Of a stretch of 64,000 bases of DNA, positions 55,166-58,495 are shown one piece after another. Numbering within the stretch: position 1 is the first letter of the stretch; each line of letters opens with the position of its first letter. Both the position numbers and the translations under genes were made by a program. The DNA is from Altererythrobacter sp. C41. Lineage in GTDB: Bacteria; Pseudomonadota; Alphaproteobacteria; Sphingomonadales; Sphingomonadaceae. The stretch spans positions 496,001 through 560,000 of the forward strand of contig NZ_JAEVFE010000001.1 of assembly GCF_016803135.1 (NCBI RefSeq). The letters run 5' to 3'. A model generated the notes under the pieces. The model was not told where the DNA came from. It worked only from the letters and a program-made list of their open reading frames with translations, and did not search any database.

Positions 55166-55906
55166 ATGACCGCGACCCGCTTGTTCGACCGCGCCGTAGT
55201 GCGCCTGAGCCCGCTCGATGAAGGGGAAAACGTGACCGGCTTCCTCCAGGGCTTGCTGACCAACGACGTCGCGGGGCCGCTGCCCGCCTATGCCGCGCTG
55301 CTCTCCGCCCAGGGCAAGACGCTGTTCGACCTGATCGTCTGGCAGGGCGGCCAAGGCGAGATCCTGCTCGATTGCGAGGCCACATATGCGGAGGAACTGG
55401 TCAGGCGGCTGTCGCTCTACCGCTTGCGGCGCAAGATCGACATTCGGATCGACGACACGGTCGGCGTCCATTGGCGCAAGCAGAGCGGCGACGGCGCCGC
55501 GCCCGACCCGAGGCTCGCGGATCTCGGCGAGCGTTGGCTGGCGCCCGTTTCGGGCGACGACGTGGCTGCGGACGCCGAATGGCATGCGCACCGCCTCGCG
55601 CTCGGCGTTCCCGAGGGACGCGACGAGCTCGGCGACGTGCTGTGGCTCGAGACCAATGCCGTGGAGCTTCACGGCGTGAGCTTCTCCAAGGGCTGCTACG
55701 TCGGGCAGGAGAACACCGCACGGATGAACTGGCGGCAGAAGGTCAATCGCCGCCTCGTGGTCGTTCCGCTCGACAGTTCGGAGGAGAAGCGGCGCAAGGC
55801 GGCCTACCCCGCACTCGGCCTCGCGGTCGATCACCTGAGGCTCGAAGCGATCGATCCCGCGTGGGCGCCCGCCTGGCTTGCGGGATCGCTCAGCCCGGTT
55901 GAGTAG
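55166..55906 (+). CDS. ygfZ: Folate-binding protein YgfZ
   Basis: A 246-residue GcvT-fold protein that helps assemble or repair some Fe-S enzymes (for example MiaB) using tetrahydrofolate. The diagnostic KGCYVGQENTARM lies at about 176-188; its cysteine is essential in E. coli. The N-terminal half LQGLLTNDVAGPLPAYAALL SAQGK region matches the aminomethyltransferase fold. It converges with the tetR gene, whose last codons overlap by 17 bases. Confidence 0.92.
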   Translation: MTATRLFDRAVVRLSPLDEGENVTGFLQGLLTNDVAGPLPAYAALLSAQGKTLFDLIVWQGGQGEILLDCEATYAEELVRRLSLYRLRRKIDIRIDDTVGVHWRKQSGDGAAPDPRLADLGERWLAPVSGDDVAADAEWHAHRLALGVPEGRDELGDVLWLETNAVELHGVSFSKGCYVGQENTARMNWRQKVNRRLVVVPLDSSEEKRRKAAYPALGLAVDHLRLEAIDPAWAPAWLAGSLSPVE

Positions 55907-56489
55907 CCGCCGCGATCGAGTTCAGCAGCATTCGCTCGGCCCGGTCGCGGGCGGCAGTATCGGGCAGCTTGAGCGAGCGTGCGAGCGCGGAACCGATCAG
56001 CGCGTCCCCCATCGCCAGAAGAACGAGCGCCAGCGTATCCTCGTGCACCCGCGCCAGATCGCCATGCGATCCCGCTTCTTCGGGCGCGATTTCGTCCACC
56101 AGTTGATGGATCGCCTCGACGATCGGGGTCAGCGCATCCTCGTTGCCGGTCAGGATCATCCAGCTTGCGAGCGCTCCCGCCCCTTCCTTGTCGAAGGCAT
56201 CGAACGCAAGATCGACCACTTCACGCGGCGATCCGAGGCCGGCGCGGCTCGCGCGGACGGCATCCTTGATGCTCTCGCACACGGTTTCGGCCAGATGCCG
56301 TGCGAGTTCCTTCTGCAGGCCCGACGCCGATCCGAAATGATGCAGCAAGTTGGCATGCGTCCGCCCAATCCGCGCCGAGACGGCTTTCAGCGTCACGGAT
56401 TGCGGGCCGGCTTCTATAAGTAATGCGCGCGCCGCTTCGAGCGCAGATTTGCGGCTTTCCTCGGGGCTGAGACGCTTGCGACTTGCCAT
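55890..56489 (-). CDS. TetR/AcrR family transcriptional regulator
   Basis: A 199-residue repressor. The N-terminal helix-turn-helix is SVTLKAVSARIGRTHANLLHHFGSASG (described here by its ends, about residues 31-57), and the C-terminal ligand domain is helical. It diverges from the first of two PF10118 genes with only 29 bases between the chosen starts, so it probably controls them. The long upstream extension is not used; ATG 56489 gives the normal length. Ligand unknown. Confidence 0.87.
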   Translation of the reverse strand: MASRKRLSPEESRKSALEAARALLIEAGPQSVTLKAVSARIGRTHANLLHHFGSASGLQKELARHLAETVCESIKDAVRASRAGLGSPREVVDLAFDAFDKEGAGALASWMILTGNEDALTPIVEAIHQLVDEIAPEEAGSHGDLARVHEDTLALVLLAMGDALIGSALARSLKLPDTAARDRAERMLLNSIAAATQPG

Positions 56490-56518
56490 GCGATTCCCTG
56501 AACAATAAAAGATTAACC

Positions 56519-57427
56519 ATGCGGGGGGATCAAACAATCGGGGTAGAGCGCGGGAGCGCTGCCGGCAAGTCGCCGCGCACCAGCGGTAGCGTGACGCCTG
56601 CCGATCATGCGCTGAATATTCGCGACCAGAAGTTCTGCCGGGGGGAGCGGCCGGCGCGCTGGTGGCACTCGGGCGATCCGGTGGCGACGGCCTGGTATAA
56701 TTCGGTTTCCGCCAGTCTGCCCCGCGGGGAAAAGTTCTTCATCCAGGTGATGAAGTACTACGACGACAAGGTTCCGCCCGCCATGGCGGCGGAACTGCGC
56801 GCCTTCACGCGGCAGGAATCGAACCACGCGCGCGAGCATGTGGCGTTCAACAATCTCGCGCAGAGCCATGGTTACGACATCGAGAGCATCGACAAGGGCA
56901 TCGAGGAGATGCTCGCGCTGACCCAGGGACGGCCGGTCGAATTCAATCTCGCGATCACCATCGCGCTGGAGCATTTCGCCGCGTCGATCAGCCACTGCCT
57001 GCTGACCGATCCGCGCTACCTCGCGGGCGTGGACGAGGAAATCGCCGAGATGTGGCGCTGGCACTCGATCGAGGAGATCGAGCACAAGGGCATCACCTAC
57101 GACGTCTGGCTTCACGCCACGCGCGAGTGGAGCGCGTGGAAGCGGTACCGCGTGCGCGCGCTGCTGACGCTGCTGATCACTCGTCGCTATTACAACAACA
57201 GGGTGCGCGACGCGCTGGGCCTGCTGCGGCAGGACGGGATCACAGGTCTGCGGGCCAAGTGGCTGCTTTTCAGGCATTTATGGATCGCCCCCGGCATGAT
57301 GCGGCGGATGTTCTTCGACTGGGCGAAAATTCTGCTGCCGGGCTTCCATCCCTGGAAGCAGGACGACCGGGCACTGATCCGCAAGTTCGACAGCCCTTAC
57401 GCCGATGCGGTGATGCCGGCGGAATAA
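56519..57427 (+). CDS. PF10118 family protein (annotated metal-dependent hydrolase), copy 1, with di-iron motif
   Basis: A 302-residue mostly helical protein of the COG3687/PF10118 family, named predicted metal-dependent hydrolase. It contains E71, E100-x-x-H103, E151 and E186-x-x-H189 (segments RGEKFF, RQESNHAREH, ALEHFAA, IEEIEHKG). The order and spacing of 29 and 35 residues match the four-helix di-iron carboxylate proteins. ATG 56519 has no clear ribosome-binding site; GTG 56591 is an alternative that would leave a 101-base divergent promoter region with tetR. Function unknown; an oxidative di-iron enzyme is more likely than a hydrolase. Confidence 0.8.
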   Translation: MRGDQTIGVERGSAAGKSPRTSGSVTPADHALNIRDQKFCRGERPARWWHSGDPVATAWYNSVSASLPRGEKFFIQVMKYYDDKVPPAMAAELRAFTRQESNHAREHVAFNNLAQSHGYDIESIDKGIEEMLALTQGRPVEFNLAITIALEHFAASISHCLLTDPRYLAGVDEEIAEMWRWHSIEEIEHKGITYDVWLHATREWSAWKRYRVRALLTLLITRRYYNNRVRDALGLLRQDGITGLRAKWLLFRHLWIAPGMMRRMFFDWAKILLPGFHPWKQDDRALIRKFDSPYADAVMPAE

Positions 57428-57449
57428 AACCGGTATTTCGCGTTCTTGT

Positions 57450-57554
57450 GAGCTCCCGCGAAGGCGGGAGCCTTGGGCCGCTCGGCCGTCCGGTGCGGCT
57501 TTCCCGTCGAGGAGCGCCGGTGGCCTGAGGTCCCTGCCTTCGCAGGGACTCTAG
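57450..57554. repeat. Paired-hairpin intergenic repeat element, copy 3
   Basis: Two hairpins (CTCCCGCGAAGGCGGGAG and TCCCTGCCTTCGCAGGGA) sit at the ends of a larger inverted repeat whose arms start GAGCTCCCGCGAAGGCGGG. It fills most of the gap between the two PF10118 genes. Confidence 0.75.
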
Positions 57555-57560
57555 CCATAT

Positions 57561-57606
57561 TGACACGAATGTCAGCGGATACTACTTACAAGAGTGTCAG
57601 TAAGTA
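57561..57606 (+). promoter_or_regulatory. Palindromes upstream of the second PF10118 gene
   Basis: TGACA-CGAA-TGTCA (57561-57574) and TACTTAC-N10-GTAAGTA (57583-57606) lie in the 60 bases before the start. The first overlaps a consensus -35 hexamer TTGACA (57560-57565). A third TGTCA falls inside the second palindrome. Binding by the nearby TetR protein is plausible but not shown. Confidence 0.5.
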
Positions 57607-57616
57607 CGAGCGAATC

Positions 57617-58495
57617 ATGAACGCCCCTCAGACATTCCCCTTCGACCGCGCTTCGGCGAGCCCCACACCACCCGATCTCGCGATCACCGTGCGCGACGAG
57701 CGCTTCAACCGCGAGGGCAAGCCGCGCCGCTGGTGGGCCGGCGAACCGTTCGGCACCGCCTGGCACAACGCGCTTTCCGCCACTTTCCCCCGCGGCGAAG
57801 CTTTCTTTATCGAAGCGGTCAAGGCGCACCGAGCCGGCGCGGACCCGAAGCTGGACGCCGAAATCCGCGCGTTCGTGAAGCAGGAAATCAACCACACCCG
57901 CGAACACATCGCCTTCAACAAGTTGGCGGAGAACGCCGGCTACGACATCAAGGCGATCGACAAGCGGGTCGAGGAGTTGCTCGCGCTGACCAAGGACCGT
58001 CCGGCGATCGCCAACCTCGCCGTGACCATGGCGCTCGAGCACTACACTGCGATGATGGCGCACGAGTTCCTCGCCAATCCGCAGCATTTCGAGAACGCCG
58101 ACGCCGAGGTGCGGGCGATGTGGCGCTGGCATGCGGTCGAGGAGATCGAGCACAAGGGCGTCGCATTCGACACCTGGAATCACGCGACGCGAGACTGGTC
58201 GAAGTGGCAGCGCTGGAAAGTCCGCAGCCTGGTGATGCTCTCGGTCACGGGCAGGTTCTTCAAGAACCGCTGGATCGATTCGATGAACCTGCTCGCGCAG
58301 GACGGGATCACCGGCTGGAACGCGCGCTGGGGTCTGCTCAAGTATCTCGTGGCCAGCCCGGGCGTCCTGCGCCGGATCTTCCCGGCATGGCTCGCCTACT
58401 TCAAGCCCGGCTTCCACCCGTGGGAACACGACGACCGCGAGCTGATCGGCCTCTACGAAGGCGAGTTCGAGGACGCGCTGCTGCCGGCGGAGTGA
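57617..58495 (+). CDS. PF10118 family protein (annotated metal-dependent hydrolase), copy 2, with di-iron motif
   Basis: A 292-residue paralogue of the preceding gene. The residues E61, E90-x-x-H93, E141 and E176-x-x-H179 repeat the E, ExxH, E, ExxH pattern with the same 29- and 35-residue spacing, and segments such as MWRWHAVEEIEHKG and PGFHPWEHDDREL are shared with copy 1. ATG 57617 (MNAPQTFPFD) is chosen because palindromes and a -35-like hexamer lie just upstream. Paired-hairpin repeats bracket the gene on both sides. Function unknown. Confidence 0.85.
   Translation: MNAPQTFPFDRASASPTPPDLAITVRDERFNREGKPRRWWAGEPFGTAWHNALSATFPRGEAFFIEAVKAHRAGADPKLDAEIRAFVKQEINHTREHIAFNKLAENAGYDIKAIDKRVEELLALTKDRPAIANLAVTMALEHYTAMMAHEFLANPQHFENADAEVRAMWRWHAVEEIEHKGVAFDTWNHATRDWSKWQRWKVRSLVMLSVTGRFFKNRWIDSMNLLAQDGITGWNARWGLLKYLVASPGVLRRIFPAWLAYFKPGFHPWEHDDRELIGLYEGEFEDALLPAE

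Follow-up and report, generated by a model that had tools for sequence, protein, structure and literature searches.

We analysed a tandem pair of genes, here gene 1 and gene 2, that encode PF10118-family proteins in a 64,000-nucleotide stretch of Altererythrobacter sp. C41 DNA (NCBI RefSeq assembly GCF_016803135.1, contig NZ_JAEVFE010000001.1, positions 496,001 to 560,000; hereafter the window). Although the family carries the label 'predicted metal-dependent hydrolase', we conclude, with a probability of about 0.78, that both proteins are ferritin-like dimetal oxidases or oxygenases of the AurF/CylC type, most likely di-iron, that act on a lipid-like substrate and are inducible through a TetR-family regulator. 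As to the reaction, our guess is that hydroxylation or desaturation seem most likely.

Genes 1 and 2 both lie on the forward strand (Table 1), encode proteins with 50% identity and match the PF10118 profile with 224 and 262 bits, respectively, against a cut-off of 33.2 (model positions 2–247 of 247); NCBIfam gives no function for either protein. A preliminary description of this DNA had assigned the pair a canonical E-ExxH-E-ExxH di-iron site, consisting of E71/E61, E100-H103/E90-H93, E151/E141 and E186-H189/E176-H179 (gene 1/gene 2), and all six residues occur where it placed them. We aligned 158 homologues, 55 of which are less than 70% identical to each other, and found the six residues invariant in all 55 representatives, a degree of conservation far beyond chance; the same six are invariant columns in a second alignment of 87 sequences. 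The plain six-ligand description, characteristic of ribonucleotide reductase R2 proteins, is nevertheless incomplete, as it missed a third His (H182/H172) and a Gln directly before the first ExxH (Q99/Q89), which are likewise invariant, together with R35/R26, E185/E175 and E188/E178. In open-frame numbering, from which 16 is subtracted to give gene 2 numbering, the residues conserved in 55/55 are R42, E77, Q105, E106, H109, E157, H188, E191, E192, E194 and H195. A nine-position signature (E, Q, E, H, E, H, E, E, H) is complete in 157 of the 158 homologues, and the single incomplete one is a truncated sequence that ends before the last five signature positions. Gln precedes the first ExxH in 157/157 sequences reaching that position, whereas the third His and the Glu at the E175 position are each present in 158/158.

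The invariant third His and the Gln before the first ExxH make the site AurF/CylC-like rather than plainly R2-like. Profile comparison with hhalign aligned the PF10118 family to nine AurF-like proteins (E value 5.2e-5, probability 67%), placing Q89-E90-xx-H93 on D-E-xx-H, E141 on a conserved Glu and H172-xx-E175-E176-xx-H179 on H-xx-D-E-xx-H, for which the AurF equivalents are D135-E136-H139, E196 and H223-D226-E227-H230. By this alignment H182/H172 corresponds to the seventh ligand in AurF, and PF10118 proteins would supply the complete AurF/CmlI set of three His and four carboxylates, with six positions matched by profile and E61 in a weaker alignment described below; AurF residues 136, 139, 196, 223, 227 and 230 were checked on the Protein Data Bank chain, and E101 was counted from alignments. 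The AurF/CmlI family of arylamine N-oxygenases (PF11583) thus shares with PF10118 the fold, equivalents of all seven ligands and an Hxx[DE]ExxH motif, and the two are linked by bridging sequences, L096 and L097, that fall below both cut-offs (28.9 and 28.3 bits against 29.6 for PF11583; 22.3 and 20.8 against 33.2 for PF10118). L097 alone also aligned to the PF10118 family (E value 3.6e-4, probability 37%). The families differ in that AurF has Asp where PF10118 has Gln before the first motif (the second-sphere residue D135) and Glu in the second (D226), in gene context and in their low pairwise similarity. The helix spacings of 29 and 35 residues are identical in the two paralogues, as previously noted, but are only close to those of AurF, in which E101–E136 and E196–E227 are separated by 35 and 31. 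Neither gene product matched PF11583 up to an E value of 1, and several weaker PF11583 matches have Val in place of the third His, which is therefore absent from some AurF-like proteins.

CylC/NocO-type dimetal halogenases, which act on acyl chains, combine QExxH, Hxx(D/E)ExxH and three His according to the available passages of two reports (PMC12101540, PMC8406957). Within those passages, PMC12101540 describes Gln before the first ExxH, an HxxDExxH second motif with Asp and a counterpart of E141 that sometimes varies; the members of the class that it names are natural-product enzymes. PF10118 proteins differ in having Glu for this Asp and an invariant E141, as judged from the reported motifs. 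The PF10118 combination of a third His, a CylC-type Gln and Glu in place of D226 is not described in the literature passages covered.

Other members of the ferritin-like E-ExxH-E-ExxH class include COQ7 (PF03232) and the soluble acyl-acyl carrier protein desaturases, which have the six classical ligands only. These differ from PF10118 proteins in size and in partners, although a COQ7 protein reached a weak 20.6 bits with the PF10118 profile and desaturases occur among our structural matches. R2 proteins and R2-like ligand-binding oxidases (R2lox) share with PF10118 a four-helix bundle and the E-ExxH-E-ExxH core; they lack the extra His, and a sequence match to them was not found.

AlphaFold2 models built from the locus alignments confidently predict both proteins as helical bundles (Table 1), with block-mean predicted local distance difference test (pLDDT) values of about 92–98 away from the termini. 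In both models the putative active-site residues sit on four long helices, which in gene 2 span residues 44–69 (E61), 77–106 (E90 and H93), 130–153 (E141) and 163–190 (H172, E176 and H179), a predicted arrangement of the E-ExxH-E-ExxH residues on four helices of one bundle. Second-look structural alignment (VIA-align) of the gene 2 model placed CmlI first (5hyg, Z score 14.8, root-mean-square deviation 4.3, 238 residues aligned), followed by AurF (3chh, Z 14.1) and R2 proteins (Z 13.8 and below), and that of the gene 1 model listed a putative R2 protein (2rcc, Z 15.2), CmlI (15.1) and AurF (14.6). The 50 matches listed are ferritin-like proteins, including R2, AurF/CmlI, R2lox and methane monooxygenase; these lists were drawn only from Foldseek's top 1000 chains, so that the absence of other folds from them is uninformative. 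Foldseek itself listed aldehyde-deformylating oxygenase, R2, R2lox, desaturase, the azoxy synthase VlmB and AurF. Off-type chains among the 50 matches listed (two TENA/THI-4 proteins, the formiminotetrahydrofolate cyclodeaminase 1o5h and SV2A 8yf0) were taken as helical noise, and a lysozyme sequence match (E value 0.005) was rejected, as it covers 27 residues and is absent from the profile search.

These data bear on the foremost alternative, that the proteins are canonical six-ligand di-iron oxidases of the R2/desaturase type, in which H172/H182 and the Gln are structural and lie outside the site. The six classical ligands are indeed invariant and R2 proteins, at Z 13.8–15.2, are tied with AurF/CmlI, yet a Z score of about 13–15 reflects shared fold only; H172 precedes E176 by four residues and H179 by seven, which is the H-xxx-E-xx-H arrangement of AurF, and the profile alignments place it on AurF H223. 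We consider this alternative improbable, though it is the most serious of those weighed here, and favour the AurF/CylC-type assignment.

The preliminary description had further proposed that the adjoining TetR-family regulator might sense a hydrophobic substrate. We scanned genomes for relatives of the locus and used the best 80 of 90 loci, nearly all from Erythrobacteraceae or other Sphingomonadales (together with two labelled no further than Alphaproteobacteria, one from Caulobacteraceae and one from Povalibacter). In 78 of these 80 loci the opposite strand carries a homologue of the window's TetR gene; the remaining two are L053, in which the first copy is near the edge of the locus, and the truncated contig L054. 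Two PF10118 copies occur in 23/80 loci, and in the 21 of these that show the TetR gene the extra copy lies between it and the original gene. The first copy keeps all nine signature positions in 22 of the 23 tandem loci and is truncated in the other, so the extra copy is not decaying.

Upstream of gene 2 we found a palindrome, TGACACGAATGTCA, which conforms to TGACA-N4-TGTCA (consensus TGACAYYRRTGTMA). In 220-base windows around the approximate gene start, the palindrome precedes the gene 2 orthologue with at most one mismatch in 78/80 loci (32 exact), compared with 0/353 control windows and 1/80 shuffled windows, although the kinship of the loci, and the fact that it was the window that first revealed the motif, mean that these are not 80 independent trials. 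The linkage to a TetR gene stands, but with the palindrome before gene 2 and not before gene 1: no such site was found there, the 23 tandem loci giving one at two mismatches and the rest at three or four. The only gene 1 palindrome with at most one mismatch, in L054, was rejected, the contig being truncated and the scan window falling elsewhere. A third PF10118 copy in the same genome (G000:C7:60377-61123) likewise diverges from a TetR gene, and a palindrome-type site lies between the two. The sequences suggest that the TetR protein would bind the palindrome.

Sites of this kind extend beyond the locus. The strict pattern TKACAYNNRTGTMA, used here in preference to a one-mismatch version to define the regulon, occurs 45 times in eight of nine genomes (7 sites in the window's own genome and 38 in seven of eight relatives), whereas the reversed pattern gave no match across the nine; in the own genome, allowing one mismatch gave 19 sites compared with 1 for the control. 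Twelve of the 45 strict sites precede PF10118 genes (three assigned by coordinates) and 5 precede TonB-receptor-like genes (one a weak match; the TonB models for these targets score below their cut-offs). A further 2 precede putatively secreted proteins of 167–189 amino acids, 6 a 103-amino-acid protein, 2 a cytochrome P450 and 1 a short-chain dehydrogenase/reductase (SDR), the P450 and SDR sites all being in relatives. Acyl-coenzyme A (acyl-CoA) ligases account for 8 sites and a thioesterase divergent from leuC for 6, both of which count for less because they overlap start codons and are half coding. Together with some of the neighbourhoods described below, this regulon lends indirect support to the hydrophobic substrate. 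CYP153 operons of the ferredoxin–P450–reductase kind exist; the family libraries did not identify the regulon P450 as CYP153.

Lipid-type targets and the QExxH plus Hxx(D/E)ExxH combination reported for CylC (in the passages available from PMC12101540) would also suit a halogenase of the CylC/NocO kind that chlorinates an unactivated carbon of an acyl chain. We regard this as unlikely: the second motif has Glu rather than the reported Asp, E141 never varies whereas its reported CylC counterpart sometimes does, the ligand set fits oxygenases as well, and both regulon and neighbours look catabolic. The likeness to CylC is moreover judged from reported motifs.

Among 142 genomes of the class, 16 contain a PF10118 match (13 above the cut-off), as do 44 of 299 genomes sampled across the phylum at above-cut-off scores, with up to nine matches per genome; the family occurs in Acinetobacter, Burkholderia, Pseudomonas, mycobacteria and Nostoc, and the search confirmed no viral relative. 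The match on a Nostoc plasmid, which has QExxH and HxxEExEH, belongs to the ordinary PF10118 proteins. To tally gene neighbourhoods we fetched 40 loci, in which 106 neighbours passed filters, and scanned 90 neighbours within two genes from 34 loci (L224, L243, L248, L249 and L255 had no PF10118 gene by the simple gene caller, and L258 retained no neighbour after filters). The 90 neighbours span 122 families, among them 7 AraC-type and 7 TetR-type regulators, 5 SDRs, 3 alpha/beta hydrolases, 3 GntR regulators and 2 each of AMP-binding, thiolase and acyl-CoA dehydrogenase proteins.

On plasmids, 78 records contain a PF10118 relative, and in four of nine hand-picked regions lipid- or P450-oxidation genes lie beside it. 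In an Acinetobacter plasmid, PF10118 comes after AraC, ferredoxin, P450 and FAD oxidoreductase genes and ahead of TetR, BtrH and two thioesterase genes. Two Mycolicibacterium plasmids encode PF10118 divergent from TetR, then an SDR, a further protein of 307 amino acids that matches AurF weakly, a pair of NAD(P)/FAD-dependent oxidoreductases (the one tested is similar to flavin-containing monooxygenases) and an alpha/beta hydrolase; on the other side of PF10118 lie lipid genes, among them one for an acyl-CoA ligase. A Mycobacterium avium plasmid carries an acyl-CoA ligase, an alcohol dehydrogenase and an R2-like oxidase near PF10118. The R2-like ligand-binding oxidase gene in the region of one mycobacterial plasmid, together with the ferritin-like fold, would suit a role in the storage or detoxification of iron or peroxide, or an R2lox-like ligand-binding oxidase, in place of an oxygenase that turns over a substrate; linked TetR and AraC genes and the multi-copy expansion in some genomes fit substrate use better, and we give this alternative little credence.

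Several observations weigh against an AurF/CylC-type, lipid-directed oxygenase, in addition to the relatedness of the palindrome loci and the position of the acyl-CoA ligase and thioesterase sites. When the alignment used for comparison contained AurF and CmlI fragments, the match was weak (probability 16%, E value 0.0016) and, while setting E61 on AurF E101 with both motifs in register, placed E141 one residue off E196. Clustering of the ligand residues in one site is predicted from the helices that carry them. AurF/CmlI lie within 1 Z of R2, so that fold alone cannot pick the subclass; none of 299 Foldseek matches reached an E value of 0.001 or below (best 0.044), and sequence and profile searches gave no credible solved relative of PF10118. 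The eighth relative has no strict TKACAYNNRTGTMA site, and 3 of the 45 sites fall outside the target classes. A transposase separates the P450 set from PF10118 in the Acinetobacter plasmid, and five of the nine plasmid regions have no evident lipid context but OmpA-type genes, an OruR regulator with an alpha/beta hydrolase, a DNA-repair gene, nitrogen-starvation genes or translation genes. The surroundings of genes 1 and 2 showed no dedicated reductase.

In the mechanism that we propose for an AurF/CylC-type enzyme, gene 2 residues E90 and E176 would form the bridges between two irons, with E61, E141, H93, H172 and H179 as terminal ligands and with Q89 and E175 hydrogen-bonded to histidines on the metal. 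O2 would bind to the iron pair in its reduced state, and the species so activated would attack a lipid-like substrate at a C–H bond or at some other oxidisable group. This substrate is probably a fatty acid, an acyl thioester or a hydrocarbon-derived intermediate, for which other gene products of the regulon may provide uptake and activation. Gene 2 would be kept repressed by the TetR protein, bound to the palindrome at the gene 2 promoter, until the substrate or the corresponding acyl-CoA causes its release.

More tentatively, and at slightly less than even odds, PF10118 as a whole may constitute an unrecognised and widespread AurF/CylC branch with a hybrid second sphere (the halogenase Gln, and Glu for Asp) that functionalises C–H bonds of lipids or hydrocarbons in ordinary catabolism, often under linked TetR or AraC sensors. 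If so, 'predicted metal-dependent hydrolase' would be a large misannotation, AurF/CylC-type chemistry would be placed in primary lipid metabolism and, should the lipid C–H chemistry hold, hydrocarbon and fatty acid breakdown would be linked to the AurF/CylC di-iron class. The defined site, the palindrome and the short list of motif-bearing genes make metal, substrate and regulator directly testable. The current label steers experimenters toward the wrong chemistry.

A genuine metal-dependent hydrolase with a dinuclear site, for which the Pfam name and the database label speak, is very unlikely and we rejected it: the proteins are predicted helical bundles with paired ExxH motifs, their structural matches are ferritin-like oxidases and oxygenases, and beyond PF10118's own name no hydrolase family match was found in Pfam or NCBIfam and no fold supports it. 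The earlier preference for a ferritin-like di-iron oxidase or oxygenase is thus supported by conservation, predicted bundles, structural matches, profile similarity to AurF-like proteins and a weak one to COQ7. Computation gives good support to the fold class and to the site. In open-licence PubMed Central literature, PF10118 is named as a protease group in the passage seen of lanthipeptide work. COG3687 was not found there, nor were the AurF residue numbers or papers joining 'predicted metal-dependent hydrolase', 'di-iron' and 'ferritin-like'; among the matches listed, no title or abstract start concerns the PF10118 family, although a few of these papers contain the words 'metal-dependent hydrolase', and, for UCP07580, PIRSF007580, IPR016516 and pfam10118, only 'metal hydrol' matched.

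Table 1. Features of the PF10118 locus, in window coordinates (pTM, predicted template modelling score).
Feature	Coordinates	Strand	Remarks
TetR-family regulator, 199 amino acids, divergent from gene 1	55890..56489	-	opposite-strand homologue conserved among loci
Gene 1, PF10118 protein, 302 amino acids	56519..57427	+	E 3e-66; AlphaFold2 mean pLDDT 91.7, pTM 0.87
Gene 1 E71, putative first-helix ligand	56729..56731	+	invariant
Gene 1 Q99-E100-xx-H103 (QExxH)	56813..56827	+	invariant
Gene 1 E151, putative third-helix ligand	56969..56971	+	invariant
Gene 1 H182-xx-E185-E186-x-E188-H189, third His included	57062..57085	+	invariant
Putative promoter TTGACA-17-TACTTA, overlaps palindrome	57560..57588	+	by eye, inference only
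Palindrome, probable TetR site before gene 2	57561..57574	.	at most 1 mismatch in 78/80 loci
Gene 2, PF10118 protein, 292 amino acids	57617..58495	+	E 8e-78; AlphaFold2 mean pLDDT 93.5, pTM 0.90
Gene 2 E61, putative first-helix ligand	57797..57799	+	invariant
Gene 2 Q89-E90-xx-H93 (QExxH)	57881..57895	+	invariant
Gene 2 E141, putative third-helix ligand	58037..58039	+	invariant
Gene 2 H172-xx-E175-E176-x-E178-H179, third His included	58130..58153	+	invariant

The start of gene 2 is most plausibly the ATG at 57617, the frame being open further upstream. The putative promoter is not among the results of a consensus promoter scan of the window. The divergent TetR and gene 1 starts are only 29 bases apart, and motif and consensus promoter scans found neither a palindrome nor a consensus promoter in this interval (56490–56518). 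In the gap between genes 1 and 2 lie a terminator-like hairpin (57419–57441; 0.7 expected by chance) and, downstream of the palindrome, a TGTCA half-site (57595–57599).

Among AurF-like proteins, L096, L097, L105, L151 and L165 form a group of about 300 amino acids between PF11583 and PF10118, with HWMEEAQH-type motifs (HWMEEAGH in L096, HWKEECQH in L165); L096, L097, L151 and L165 fall below the PF11583 cut-off, and L097 alone as query found no solved relative. The weak AurF matches in the mycobacterial PF10118 runs are L269:8675-9595, which is labelled ferritin-like, and L266:9579-10499. The 103-amino-acid protein behind the motif occurs in six genomes (G000:C3:234361, or L187:3513-3824, with orthologues in L190, L202, L211, L213 and L221); the copy in the window's own genome matched neither Pfam nor NCBIfam, and the protein is likely an uncharacterized member of the regulon. 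Two receptor-type loci also lie behind the motif (L142:6202-9888 and L141:970-4100), encoding a TonB-receptor-like protein and an 865-amino-acid protein that is receptor-like by eye, and each adjoins a related, putatively secreted protein of 167–185 amino acids without a known family.

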